A DNA stretch of 64,000 bases from NCBI GenBank assembly GCA_012862575.1, contig BLSF01000041.1, forward strand, positions 310,001-374,000, in the 5' to 3' direction. Shown here piece by piece: positions 8,949-28,459 of this stretch. The DNA comes from Parietichytrium sp. I65-24A (Eukaryota > Sar > Bigyra > Thraustochytrida > Thraustochytriidae). The stretch's first letter is position 1; each line of letters begins with the position of its first letter. A program made the position numbers and the translations under genes. The notes under the pieces are model-generated. The model searched no databases, was not told the origin of the DNA, and saw only the letters and a list, made by a program, of their open reading frames with translations.

Positions 8949-9019
8949 GTCCGAGTAGTGTATGGGTACCATACCAGCCTTCCAAGCTGGTGAACCGGGT
9001 TCGAGTCCCGGCTCGGACA
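8949..9019 (+). tRNA. tRNA-Gly(UCC)
   Basis: Acceptor strands GTCCGAG (8949-8955) and CTCGGAC (9012-9018) pair fully, followed by discriminator A. The anticodon stem CCAGC/GCTGG encloses CTTCCAA with anticodon TCC at 8981-8983. The T arm CCGGG-TTCGAGT-CCCGG is canonical. The D arm (about 8958-8972) is compatible but weakly paired. T-runs about 10 bases downstream are suitable Pol III terminators. There is no intron. CCA is not encoded. Confidence 0.93.
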
Positions 9020-22643: not shown

Positions 22644-22655
22644 AACCAAGTGGTT
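22644..22655 (+). promoter_or_regulatory. Palindrome 5 nt upstream of initiator tRNA copy 1
   Basis: AACCA-AG-TGGTT, a 5-bp inverted repeat ending 5 nt before the mature 5' end. Copy 3 has the same arms at 6 nt. The role is inferred from this conserved position only. Confidence 0.5.
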
Positions 22656-22660
22656 CAAGT

Positions 22661-22748
22661 AGCGGCTTAGCTCAGCGGTAGAGTGGTGGGCCCATAAGCA
22701 ATTATAGGTGTTACCCATAGGTCGGAGGATCGAAACCTCCAGCCGCTA
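22661..22748 (+). tRNA. Initiator tRNA-Met(CAU) with 16-nt intron, copy 1
   Basis: The initiator identity is clear: an A1-T72 pair ends the acceptor stem (AGCGGCT/AGCCGCT), the anticodon stem has three G-C pairs (GGG/CCC), position 33 is C in the loop CCCATAA, and the T loop is ATCGAAA with A54 and A60. The anticodon CAT is at 22693-22695. A 16-nt intron (22697-22712) sits at the canonical 37/38 site. The A box (TAGCTCAGCGG) and B box (GGATCGAAACC) are intact. T-rich sequence follows for Pol III termination. Copies 2 and 3 lie 5.4-5.8 kb downstream on the other strand. Confidence 0.95.
22697..22712 (+). other. tRNA intron (copy 1)
   Basis: Sequence AGCAATTATAGGTGTT. With the anticodon loop it can fold as ATAA-GCAA-TTAT, a 4-bp stem closed by a GNRA tetraloop, extended by CC/GG pairs across one mismatch. 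Confidence 0.85.
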
Positions 22749-25617
22749 TTTCTTTTGTATATTTTGTTTTATCGTTTTTTTGGGAGGTGAGCAGGTTGAA
22801 GTGCTGTCATTTCATTTTGTCTATTCTTCCTTCGAGTTGCCGGGCTATTTGACAGTGTAACACCATCATGACCATCACCTCTGAGAGATCGAGTGCCATG
22901 GCTGGATTTTGCAGGCGTTTATAGTTGGGTTGCATGATCCATGAAACATCTCATGGAAGCAGTGGCCCTCGATGCAGGAAACCCTATCATCCGTATCAAA
23001 CAAATTCATGATCGCGAATCAAACTGTACGTTACATGTACGCCATTGGAGAAAGCACAGCTGTGTAAAGCACACTGTGCGCTATGGTTTGGCCAGGTGCA
23101 CAGCTCCCGCGAGGCAGTTCGTTTCCCGGATGTTGAGCTTTCGCGAACCGCGGAAACTTTCACTTGTGTTTGAAGTTCCTCATCAAGTGCTGGTTGCTGT
23201 GCTGTCGTTTCTCGGAACGCAAGCGTGAAGATATCCAGACTGGAGCGGACTCTGTGGAGAGTCTATTGTTGTGAAAGAGGGTCTTCGAACTTTGCGACAT
23301 CTTGGAAACGGCTCCCGGGAATCAGAACTTGCGCCATAGTATTGGTGTGGCACACTGACAGTCGATCGTTCTTACTCGCGCGGTGGCAGTTTGCAGCTGG
23401 TGCTTTCAGTCTGTGGGTTAAGATTTTGGAGATTACAGTTAGAAAGTCCTTCCTCAAAAGAGCCTTTCTTGTCTTGAACTCAGACTGCAAACATCGTCGA
23501 AAAGAAAGTTTAGACAGAGCTCGGCAGAGCAGTTTCTCGCGTCACGCCAACTTGAGGCCTCCGAATCTTTTGGATACCGTCGATGATGTACGGCAGAACC
23601 TTTGAGCTCCTCAGGGCCTCTGAGCCTCCGATGCTCCGAGAGCGAGCGACATTCCACTCCTCGTCACTGAGTCCCCTGGCCGTCACAAGGGCCGACCGAC
23701 TTGGGAGTCGCTGAATTTGCGAAGAGGAATTGGCACGGACGATAGCACAGTACAGTGGTTACAAACTAATGCAAGTTGTCGACATTTGGGAAGTGGCCCT
23801 CAACTCTCAACTGTCCAGGCACACGCCTCTCACTCACGCCAAGCTCAATACTGAAAGAGTTATCTAAATTCTGAAAATTTTCTCAATGTTCTGCATGATA
23901 ACCTCTGTAAACCCTTGTATCAACAATGCCAATGAAATGTATGTATGTCATCAGAGCAATGAAACACCACAAGTGGTCCGAAAAGTCTATCTCTCACCAG
24001 TCTTCATAATTATCATTTCCCTTCCTTCCTTCCTTCCTTCCTCCCATTTCGCCGACTACCGATGACTACCGGCGACTTTGCCATCATCCGGCAAACTTGC
24101 AGAATGCAGAAACTTCAAACAAATTTCGAAACGAACGATGTCGTACAAACCTTGAGGAACTCACGGTCAGTTCCGACTCGGACTGACCTTTCAATGCGAG
24201 TACTGACGTTGTGAGCACCGGTACTGTTCTACTTTTCCAAAAGTCGTTCACTAATCACAGTCGATGCAGTTTCGCCCTCATCTCTTCGAGCGATGGTTTT
24301 TAGAGTCGGAGGTCAGGAGTGTTCGACGGCCTTGCTGTCAGTTGGCCAGTAGCACGATATGAACACACTCTAGCTTCCGACATCTTTCAGCCTCAAGGAA
24401 CCTCAAGGATCCTCAAGGCCCTCAGGTTTCTGACTGCGTTGCAACACAGTGCAAGAAGCAGTGGCAATGTACGATGCTGGGTGATGTTGGGTTAGGTTCT
24501 ATGAAGCTGGATGAGGAGACATTGAAATAGACGTAGCAACTCGTAAGTTGCGCTGGATTTGTAGTCAGACCGAATATTCTTTGAGGAAAGCGCGCGAGAG
24601 TCTACTGGCGAAGTTTTACCCTTTCATTGAGCGCTGCTTATTAGGCCGACAGTTCTTTGAACCTCATGGCTTGTGGTAAGGAAGACCAGTCATACGTTTG
24701 CGACAGGAAGCTTTTCTTTCATGTGAAAAGCACAAGTTAATTACTCTGCATCGCAGAAGATTTACATTCCTACCGGCACGATAGGAGTAAACACAATGTC
24801 ATTGACCTCTGTCTATCGAGTCCGAGTACAGTCAGTCTTGCAAATTAATTTCGCAAGACACGAGTTCAGAGTTCAGATTTTAAAAACCGATCGTTTTCTA
24901 CCCTGAGTACAACCCTCTTCGCATTTCCTATGGAGATCTATCTTCGCAATTCGGGTCCACAAAAATCGCAAATTCTAAAATTTAAGATGTCAAGGTGTGA
25001 GTGAATTGCCGTCCGGGAAATTTGACGCGAATGTCGCAAAGCTCGCGACCTTTTTCTTGAATCAAACGGGGCATGCCTTCTTTAACTCTTATATACGCGT
25101 TGCTATTCAATTTGATGTCATTTCTGCCAGATTCAATGAGGCCCTACTTGAACGATATTATATTTCGTATGTCAAGCCTGAAATAACGACATTTGCAGTC
25201 TGAAAAAGCGGGTGGCAAGGGATTGGTCACTTGTTCTGCGTTTCACAACTAGGAAATTGAGAGTTCTAAACCTACCGATCTGTCGAAATGAAACGAGGCG
25301 GCAGAGTCGGCAGAGGTTACTTGGTTTCGCACCAGAATAACAAAAGCTTAGCTTCTCCGGAACAGCAAAATTTTGATTATGTGTGGACCTCTTTGCCTCA
25401 AGTCGATTCTGCCTCTTCTTCAAGTCGTCCTATATTTGATCTTGCCTGCAGAGAGCTCTCGCATGAAGGATGAGCAATTTGAGGAAGGGCAGGTCTTCAG
25501 ACTCCAGCAGACCCAAAACGAACCCAGGAGCAAAACCCGAAGACGGAGTTCAAGTCACAAGCTCAGCAAACGTTTGTCAAGAGTCGCTGCAAAGCCTACC
25601 ATCTCCTTCAAAACAAA
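22749..25617. other. Gene-poor spacer, 2.9 kb
   Basis: Only short frames without recognisable domains or good starts. It includes (CCTT)n at 24017-24043 and an imperfect CCTCAAGGA repeat at about 24392-24424. I can support no gene. Confidence 0.5.
24017..24043. repeat. (CCTT)n microsatellite
   Basis: Tandem CCTT units ending in CTCCC. Confidence 0.85.
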
Positions 25618-26022
25618 ATGAAGCTTCAGCTACTTGCACTTGGCGGCATTGTCGCACAGTCCGCAGCTCTCGACATTGATATCTACAACAACCGTTTTCC
25701 AATGAGCATCGACTGCAAGACCAGCATTCTCGCCGCTTGCACGGACTGTGGCTCCTTGCTCGAGGACACCGATTGCATCAGTGAATGCGTCATTGGAACT
25801 GAGGCCGTTTCCTCGGATTGCGGCACCGAGTACACTGAGTTTTTGGACTGCTGGAGTGCGAAGGTTGAGGACTGTGGAACTTGCCTGGACGCCTCTTGCG
25901 CGCCAACGTACAATATCTGCATTGCCGCAAGCCCTGAAATTTTGCAAAAGTGCACGGGCAGCTCGAGCACAGGGGTCCTTACGCAAAGCAAAGTCGCAGT
26001 TGGAGTATCAATTGGACGCTGA
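25618..26022 (+). CDS. Small secreted Cys-rich protein
   Basis: 134 residues from ATG 25618. A signal peptide is likely (MKLQLLALGGIVAQSAAL). The mature part contains about 13 cysteines, several in CxxC or CxxxC spacing (CTDCGSLLEDTDC, CGTCLDASC), which suggests a disulfide-rich extracellular domain. I do not recognise the family. The C-terminus reads SKVAVGVSIGR then stop. That looks like the beginning of a membrane segment cut short, so the gene may be a truncated relative of a membrane protein, may have an unseen 3' exon, or may simply be secreted. A neighbouring short frame downstream is treated separately. Confidence 0.65.
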   Translation: MKLQLLALGGIVAQSAALDIDIYNNRFPMSIDCKTSILAACTDCGSLLEDTDCISECVIGTEAVSSDCGTEYTEFLDCWSAKVEDCGTCLDASCAPTYNICIAASPEILQKCTGSSSTGVLTQSKVAVGVSIGR

Positions 26023-26816
26023 AGAAGTACCACAGCGCTGGATTGTGCAATGAGTTGCAAGATCGAAATTTTCTCTTTTGGTCCACTAAATGGTAGGTGC
26101 AGCCTTTTTAAAATAGCCCTCATCAGTCATTTTCTTCTTGCATTTCCAAACTTTCAAATTGTTAAAATAGCCATTGAAAAGCTGTGCGCAATTGAGGATC
26201 CACATGCAGCTAGAAGAGGTGTGAGATTTGCAAGTGCCTTCCGGATTCGTGCGATTCGATCTTACACATTTGCGAATGTCTTTTCAGGGAAACTTCTCCG
26301 ATGCCAAAGACCCTTTCATGCTCCACATGGTATCGGATGCGCTACTTGACAAGAGCGCAGCATTGTCTTTGGCTGAACAGAAAGTTTATTTTCATACATT
26401 ACTTGCACTAGCGACTACCTGGTTCCGCGAGTGGTTCACAGAGAAGATCACAAATTTGGCAGCGATGAGTTGTGATTGAAGCAGCGGCCAGAAGCAGAAT
26501 ATGCTCCCGGGATTCACGAGCGATGTCAAATGGATCAAGATGCTTGATGGAAAAGCGATATAAGGCAGAGGAGTACGAACAGCATGAATAAAATGTTTTT
26601 CATGCCGGTGATCTCGTTCAAATCACTCTTGAGGCAGACAACTATTGCCAAGACCCAAACATCCCTGGAAAGTAACAAAAAAATCATTGAAAGGTAGCTA
26701 GCTGAACAGAAGAACTTTTGGAAAGAACTATTTTAAAAATATATATTTCAGTGAAGTTATGTCATACGATCATTGCCTTATAAGTACAAGAGCTGACTTG
26801 CTGTGCTAAACCTTTT
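26023..26816. other. Spacer with a possible short spliced frame
   Basis: No firm gene. A GTAGGT donor at about 26094 and a TTTTCAG acceptor ending at 26288 would join an ATG to a 64-residue frame ending at 26479 (see findings). Confidence 0.35.
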
Positions 26817-27095
26817 TTAGCAACACGTTCTGTCGTGCTTCAAGGTTCTTCCGCACGACGCGCACTTGTATTTGGTGTCCTTGCATGAAGACATCACGAA
26901 TGGGAGCCAGCATAACGGGAAGAACACGAAAATAAGAACAATGAACGCGATAATGGCTCCAAGACCGACTTTGCGTTCCTGAACGATGGTGTTCCCGCCA
27001 CAACGGCACCTTCCCCCGACCTCGTGTGGGTGATCATATCTGTGCGCTTTGTGGTTGGCCTCTACATAAACTGGCTGAGCTGTGTACGTGGTCAT
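26817..27095 (-). CDS. LITAF-like (SIMPLE-type) zinc-ribbon membrane protein
   Basis: 92 residues from ATG 27095. A first Cys pair (CRCGG, about residues 31-33) and a second knuckle (CASCGRTL, about 78-85) flank a hydrophobic stretch (about 42-67) ending in CW LPFVMSSCKDTKYKC. This is the LITAF layout: a zinc ribbon split by a membrane-inserting hairpin, with the KD-x-x-H/Y-x-C feature. LITAF proteins sit on the cytosolic face of late endosomes and lysosomes and take part in ESCRT-linked trafficking. The N-terminus (TTYTAQPVYVEANHKAH) is short. No PPxY motif is seen, so recruitment of a Nedd4-type ligase by that route is not supported. Confidence 0.82.
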   Translation of the reverse strand: MTTYTAQPVYVEANHKAHRYDHPHEVGGRCRCGGNTIVQERKVGLGAIIAFIVLIFVFFPLCWLPFVMSSCKDTKYKCASCGRTLKHDRTCC

Positions 27096-28101
27096 TTTGA
27101 TTACTCTGGTTAGCGCTTCTTGTGCTCTTCTTCGTATGTTTTCCTTTTGTGCTTTTGGTCAAGTGTGAGTTTTGGGTCTGCTGATCAGCAATCAGCTGAT
27201 CGCCAATCTGCGTTGGTTTGATTCTCGAACGCCCAAACTTTGACGGAGGACTGGATGGCCTTCGGCATATATAGCTTCAGCGACGTTATCGGACCGACCA
27301 GTCCAAACTGTGAGAACGGTACGTACAGTAGGAAAGAGTGACATCGAAACCAGGACGTCTCTGACTCTCTGACTCGCTGACTAGATCTACGCCCTGCACG
27401 CCGGCTCTTCATCCCGCACTTTTAATGCAGTGAGTAAATTAGACTTACCGTCAGAAATGGCAAGTGCGAGCCACGTTTCTGTTTCCTTCGCCCACCAGAC
27501 CTTTCATCGTTCGCAATAAGTTTGAATCAACGAAGCGGAAGGAACAATGACCAGGATGAGAGTTTTTAAACACAGAAGCTTTCTATTCCGCTCGTTCCTA
27601 CTCAAACCAACTTGCCTGGCCTGGCGATATGCATACCGGTACAGTAAACTCTCGAATTCTCATTCATCCAAAAGATTTGCTAGCCTGTGGGGATTCCAGG
27701 CTACTCGTTTAAAGGCGTTACCCGCTAAAGGGTGGTTAGGGATCCTACTTTATAACGGCTGATAACGTCGATGTCGGGAAAATCAGGTCCAAACCATTTC
27801 GAGATATTCTTCATAGCGAGAAATTCGCACTGAACTTACTCCAATTCACCGTACCACTGTAGCACTTTATATACGTACACACTGCAGTGGCAATAAAGAA
27901 TAGAATGGAAGCGAAGTAACTTTTGATGAAAACTGCAGAGTTCAGTGCAAACATTTCGGGCAACAACAGGGAATTAGGGGAGAAACTGCAGTACCAGTTG
28001 GTACTCAGTACTCACAGTCAGTACCGGTAGCTGCAGCCATTTCGTTGGCCCCAGAAGAAATGCGAGCTCTCTTCGATCTCGCAAAAAATACATGCAAAAA
28101 T
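27096..28101. other. Spacer, 1.0 kb
   Basis: No supported gene. It contains TACCGGTAC (27634-27642) and a palindrome-rich stretch of GTACC/GGTACT words at 27990-28030. Confidence 0.5.
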
Positions 28102-28189
28102 TAGCGGCTGGAGGTTTCGATCCTCCGACCTATGGGTAACACCTATAATTGCTTATGGGCCCACCACTCTACCGCTGAGCTAAGCCGCT
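28102..28189 (-). tRNA. Initiator tRNA-Met(CAU) with 16-nt intron, copy 2
   Basis: Identical in mature sequence and in intron to copy 1, and on the minus strand. The 3' end (28102) is followed in the transcript direction by T-runs that fit Pol III termination. An inverted repeat, ACCACA-CAAC-TGTGGT, lies 5 nt upstream of the 5' end. Confidence 0.95.
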
Positions 28190-28194
28190 AACTG

Positions 28195-28210
28195 ACCACA
28201 CAACTGTGGT
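28195..28210 (-). promoter_or_regulatory. Inverted repeat upstream of initiator tRNA copy 2
   Basis: 6-bp arms ACCACA/TGTGGT with a 4-nt spacer, ending 5 nt from the tRNA 5' end. Same position as in copies 1 and 3, with partly shared ACCA/TGGT arms. Confidence 0.45.
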
Positions 28211-28353
28211 GTGGGCCACTAAGGTAATCTGGTCCGATAAAAACTTTGTGCGTTTGATCGTGCTGAGAAAAAGAAGAAAGACCTCGCACACCTCGCACTC
28301 ACAGTCAGGAAAGAAAATGTTCTGAATGGAATGAAGACGAAAAAACAAAAGAA

Positions 28354-28441
28354 TAGCGGCTGGAGGTTTCGATCCTCCGACCTATGGGTAACACCTATAA
28401 TCGCTTATGGGCCCACCACTCTACCGCTGAGCTAAGCCGCT
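28354..28441 (-). tRNA. Initiator tRNA-Met(CAU) with 16-nt intron, copy 3
   Basis: Same mature sequence as the other two copies. The intron differs by one base (AGCGATTATAGGTGTT), changing the predicted loop from GCAA to GCGA and so keeping a GNRA tetraloop. It lies 164 bp from copy 2 in the same orientation. T-runs follow the 3' end. Confidence 0.95.
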
Positions 28442-28447
28442 ATCTGT

Positions 28448-28459
28448 AACCAATTGGTT
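28448..28459 (-). promoter_or_regulatory. Palindrome upstream of initiator tRNA copy 3
   Basis: AACCAATTGGTT, a perfect 12-bp palindrome 6 nt from the tRNA 5' end, with the same arms as copy 1. Confidence 0.5.

Follow-up and report, generated by a model that had tools for sequence, protein, structure and literature searches.

Every initiator tRNA-Met gene found in the genome of a thraustochytrid carries a 16-nucleotide intron

The initiator tRNA-Met genes of the thraustochytrid Parietichytrium sp. I65-24A are interrupted by a 16-nucleotide intron between positions 37 and 38. Three of these genes are located in the window, which is the 64,000-nucleotide stretch of contig BLSF01000041.1 (C41 in our numbering; assembly GCA_012862575.1) from position 310,001 to 374,000, and a fourth is located on contig C27. 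All initiator genes that were found (four of four) carry the intron, and an intronless initiator was not found in the assembly. With no intronless copy among the genes found, tRNA splicing would precede every cytosolic start, and the cytosolic start of protein synthesis in this organism very probably requires it.

Gene 1 occupies positions 22661..22748 of the forward strand, with a pre-tRNA body of 88 nucleotides, and its 16-nucleotide intron, AGCAATTATAGGTGTT, occupies positions 22697..22712. Genes 2 (28102..28189) and 3 (28354..28441) are on the reverse strand, with 16-nucleotide introns at 28138..28153 (AGCAATTATAGGTGTT) and 28390..28405 (AGCGATTATAGGTGTT). A T-rich segment directly 3' of gene 1 (22749..22781, forward strand) is a candidate RNA polymerase III terminator. 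Each of the three genes scores 51.2 bits with the Rfam model RF00005 (gathering cut-off 29), and each is reported as tRNA-Met(cat) i(38,16) by ARAGORN when introns are allowed. These programs return exactly the gene coordinates proposed in a first-pass annotation of the window, and the ARAGORN calls bear out the 16-nucleotide intron that it had placed at 37/38 in each gene. In ARAGORN's numbering, the count starts one base before the gene, and shifting the intron by one base, to 38/39, gives an identical product. With introns disallowed, the program misses all three genes, and the sole tRNA in its output for the window is a tRNA-Gly at 8949.

Eukaryotic initiator tRNAs are marked by A1-U72, a GGG/CCC anticodon stem, C33, A54 and A60, and these were the features by which the genes in the window had been named initiators. 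All of them can be read in the sequences of all four genes, with G29-31 opposite C39-41 and with C33 inside a CCCAUAA anticodon loop. The usual eukaryotic initiator also has A20, and the four genes instead have U20 in the D loop (in our numbering). This departure is minor, and the identity of the genes as initiators does not hang on it. The exons are in the normal order in all four, not with the 3' half before the 5' half, so the genes are not permuted.

The surveyed genome comprises 42,540,916 bases in 172 contigs. A DNA search with the 88-mer finds four places, all at full length and 99-100% identity, and the place outside the window (C27:473765-473852) has a 16-nucleotide intron with one base changed, also reported by ARAGORN as i(38,16). 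When three or fewer mismatches are allowed, only these four intron-bearing genes match the first 35 bases (no match in the control), and only they match the variable-loop and T-arm signature RGGTCNNNGGATCGAAACC with one mismatch (one match in the control). The exact intronless sequence GGGCCCATAACCC does not occur in the 42.5 Mb, and its reversed control occurs once. A loosened anticodon arm, GGGYYCATAACCC with one mismatch, matches 42 places, below the 105 of its reversed control. Twelve of these places were dropped because the anticodon is altered, and neither ARAGORN nor Rfam finds a tRNA at any of the 30 that keep CAT. An intronless initiator elsewhere, which the first-pass annotation had named as the result that would overturn its claim, was therefore looked for genome-wide and not found, and the claim for 'all three' genes extends to the four of four found in the genome.

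An Rfam tRNA search of the genome scored 63 of 1347 candidates, with the initiators not among them, and is not a census. The pattern GGTTCGANYCC occurs 209 times, barely above the 191 of its reversed control, and among 20 short regions from the first places listed, ARAGORN finds a tRNA in three, one of them doubtful. Viral contigs were also scanned for the intron-bearing initiator arm. The eight stretches recovered contain no tRNA according to ARAGORN and are attributed to chance.

The alternative that survives best is that an intronless, divergent or permuted initiator lies in unassembled sequence, or is too different for these searches, so that the intron-bearing genes are not the sole source of initiator tRNA. 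The assembly is in 172 contigs, an N at an assembly join was seen, and some algae have permuted initiator genes (PMC3978253). However, the searches with each half of the tRNA apart would catch most permutations of the same sequence, and they return only the four genes; likewise, no tRNA is present at the 30 loosened anticodon-arm places. We therefore consider a missed source improbable.

The exons of the four copies agree at all 72 of their 72 positions, so that excising the intron by script yields one 72-nucleotide sequence. The intron itself has two variable positions, with A in place of C in one gene and G in place of A in another. The 60-nucleotide flanks share 15-20 bases upstream and 18-25 bases downstream, which is near chance apart from runs of T, and every copy is followed within 8 nucleotides by four or more consecutive T residues. 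Identical exons between near-chance flanks imply selection or gene conversion acting on intact genes. It is thus very unlikely that these are decayed or silent genes that do not provide the initiator tRNA. The insertion itself points that way indirectly, but the stems are intact, the T runs are in place, and the genome searches found no other initiator.

In a constrained fold, the three intron variants (AGCAATT.., AGCGATT.. and AGAAATT..) each place a GNRA-type tetraloop (GCAA, GCGA or GAAA) between anticodon and intron. Its retention is suggestive of selection; because just two substitutions underlie the variants, it is only a hint, and we rejected it as proof.

Introns are common in elongator tRNA-Met, and five elongator tRNA-Met genes were found, all on contig C3 and all with introns of 39-41 nucleotides at the same site. 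The initiators and elongators share the anticodon CAU, but the C3 genes are distinct and have T54, and the four genes described here have A1-U72, A54, A60 and the GGG/CCC stem, so there is next to no chance that elongators were mistaken for initiators. Introns at this site also occur in tRNA-Lys(CUU) genes on contig C30. Of 12 places matching the pattern, eight were read, and all seven complete genes among them have a 26-nucleotide intron. An eighth gene (L074, C30 near 182398-182422) is cut by an N that lies inside the intron and probably marks a join in the assembly. The six distinct Lys introns have a common hairpin in which both partners change in three of six pairs (3-16, 5-14 and 7-12). 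Contrary signs are that one inner pair is broken in two of the six introns and that four column pairs outside the hairpin also co-vary, as the small number of variants permits.

Introns were counted in a sample of 62 nuclear tRNA genes, which was deduplicated and limited to genes with at least 100 nucleotides upstream in the fetched regions, and which is not a census. Introns were called in nine Met genes, six Lys genes and, doubtfully, one Trp gene, and the other 46 have none. The Trp call (L051), with a 13-nucleotide insert at an odd position, is probably false.

The location of the intron at 37/38 in all four initiator genes is that of a canonical nuclear tRNA intron. In eukaryotic pre-tRNAs, position 32 and intron position -3 form the anticodon-intron pair. 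C32 could pair with a G at -3 in all four initiator and all five elongator Met genes. An archaeal intron of the strict bulge-helix-bulge type, which we defined as a 4-bp central helix with a 3-nucleotide bulge on each side, was considered and rejected, because only two of the four central pairs form, with UUA as the 3' bulge (by eye). Free folding was uninformative, as neither the pre-tRNA nor the spliced tRNA has a cloverleaf as its minimum-energy fold.

Pieces of two genes that could encode the splicing endonuclease are also present. The splicing endonuclease domain PF01974 matches on contigs C90 (50.1 bits) and C11 (33.3 bits; curated cut-off 27). When the four open frames are scanned apart, those on C90 give 49.7 bits and no match, and those on C11 give 32.2 and 24.1 bits. 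Each gene seems to be split by a spliceosomal intron. Judged by eye from its motifs, the C90 gene resembles TSEN2, and the C11 gene resembles TSEN34. The PF01885 (Tpt1) profile has two matches on contig C6 (205 and 68 bits) that are 720 bases apart, apparently within a single 480-codon open frame (C6:530571-531809; L115, L116). No profile match to RtcB ligase was found in the genome, and the control was positive in 9 of 14. The presence of PF01885 and the failure to find RtcB favour a ligation route that would leave a 2'-phosphate. Next to the splicing endonuclease gene on C11 is a reverse-transcriptase open frame (L034:11-934, forward strand; Pfam PF00078). Its matches among solved structures are telomerase reverse transcriptases in three of three cases, with a best E-value of 4.1e-10.

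Taken together, these data make it highly likely that ordinary splicing by the tRNA splicing endonuclease (TSEN) has become obligatory for cytosolic initiation, and that the four genes are functional nuclear initiator genes. Several observations count against this interpretation. The anticodon-intron pair does not extend to all introns of the genome, since position -3 of the Lys(CUU) introns is A instead of G. In addition, in the constrained minimum-energy fold of the initiator pre-tRNA, C32 pairs with a different G, and a 4-bp A-U helix contains the 5' splice site, which would make that site less accessible than is usual. No candidate for the sealing enzyme came from PF09511, which has no match in the genome and is also silent in the control. 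Finally, 3 of the 14 prokaryotic genomes used as controls also contain relatives of Tpt1, so the presence of PF01885 is no proof of the ligation route.

If initiator tRNA is produced by TSEN splicing, RNA polymerase III would transcribe each of the four genes, and TSEN, with the folded tRNA body as its ruler, would cut after A37 and before A38 to free the 16-nucleotide intron. A tRNA ligase would then join the halves, perhaps an enzyme of the Trl1 or plant-like type that leaves a 2'-phosphate and uses Tpt1, rather than RtcB. Ligation would give one identical 72-nucleotide mature initiator tRNA, with CCA added afterwards.

A palindrome is found upstream of several tRNA genes, including gene 1 (ACCAAGTGGT, 22645..22654 on the forward strand, 7-16 nucleotides before the gene) and gene 3 (ACCAATTGGT, 28449..28458 on the reverse strand, 8-17 nucleotides before it). 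The sequence ACCANNTGGT occurs within 60 nucleotides upstream of 17 of the 62 nuclear tRNA genes, where its rate in the window predicts about 0.3 of 62, and it is upstream of none of the 62 between -100 and -61. It starts 12-28 nucleotides before the gene in 15 of the 17 cases. The window contains five copies, versus 0.55 in shuffles. Exact copies precede two of the four initiator genes and other tRNA loci (for example, L069, L072, L062, L063, L006 and L001). Possibly, the palindrome is a clade-specific upstream element for RNA polymerase III or a hairpin in the leader. The tRNA genes are often clustered by isoacceptor, in some cases on both strands (contigs C2, C3, C6, C20, C30, C37 and C142), and within some clusters, such as those of Trp, Lys and Asn, the flanks are partly common.

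Contig C141 (39,303 bases; L002, L005) is mitochondrial, and its cox3 gene matches solved COX3 chains, although these matches do not usefully narrow down the taxonomy; cob, nad2, nad6 and rps7 were named by eye. Codons were counted in two 3-kb stretches of this contig. TTA is absent from the 1087 codons of nad6, rps7, cox3 and nad2, in which TTG occurs 82 times. The cob frame has TTA at codons 4 and 11, before a likely start at codon 12, and a TTA at codon 394 would end a gene of 382 codons that contains no TTA. Thus, TTA appears to be a stop codon in these mitochondria, as would be expected of a labyrinthulomycete. This reassignment is rare and is described for the mitochondria of Thraustochytrium aureum (PMC5203790), with which Parietichytrium shares TTA as an apparent mitochondrial stop.

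Introns at 37/38 are ordinary in eukaryotic tRNA genes, with lengths of 6-133 nucleotides (PMC4090602). In 50 plants, 93.21% of intron-containing tRNA genes have introns shorter than 22 bp and 36.91% are Met; most are Met(CAT) or Tyr, with iMet classed apart (PMC12652284). The introns in plant elongator tRNA-Met and tRNA-Tyr genes resemble those described here in their site and short length and in the presence of splicing endonuclease genes. In contrast to the plants, as far as the available text describes them, it is not the elongator alone but also the initiator that has an intron here, in every copy found.

Interrupted initiator genes have been reported in other settings. Those of Cyanidioschyzon merolae and two Micromonas are permuted, with the Micromonas genes disrupted at 37/38 (PMC3978253). 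Like the genes described here, they are interrupted eukaryotic genes whose maturation needs splicing enzymes, but they are circular permutations for which no intron is listed, whereas the present genes have normal exon order and a plain intron. In the archaeon Thermofilum pendens, the initiator gene is single-copy, permuted and intron-bearing, and its processing is argued to be essential (PMC3218864). It shares with our genes a canonical intron, of 15 bp at 37/38 (PMC3978253), and differs in being additionally permuted at 59/60. Cyanobacterial initiator tRNA also has introns in the anticodon loop (PMC8450103), but these are group I introns, which are self-splicing and use another mechanism. 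Because permuted and intron-bearing initiators are known, dependence of initiation on tRNA splicing enzymes is not new. Cryptococcus neoformans has introns in 132 of 143 tRNA genes (PMC4090602), and its initiators may also have them, which would make it another case. Among the papers listed by searches of an open-access library, none showed a eukaryote with a plain intron in each of its initiator genes, which argues only weakly that no such case has been described. The generalization in the first-pass annotation that initiators are generally intronless has to be qualified for the eukaryotic initiator genes already known to be disrupted by permutation (PMC3978253).

The mechanism proposed here is ordinary, and it is the location of the intron that is unusual. 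In familiar eukaryotes, certain codons are starved when tRNA splicing is lost, whereas in this organism the block should fall on initiation itself. A further-reaching proposal, which we offer tentatively and hold to be somewhat short of an even chance, is that a plain TSEN intron in every nuclear initiator gene of a eukaryotic lineage makes all cytosolic initiation splicing-dependent, and that splicing or the freed 16-nucleotide intron may control global initiation. The dependence in this proposal rests on the gene survey, and the regulation is speculation. The organism offers a natural setting in which to ask if initiation can be gated by splicing and how the special anticodon loop of an initiator is preserved when the tRNA is cut and ligated, and it also bears on when a normally uninterrupted tRNA acquired its intron.

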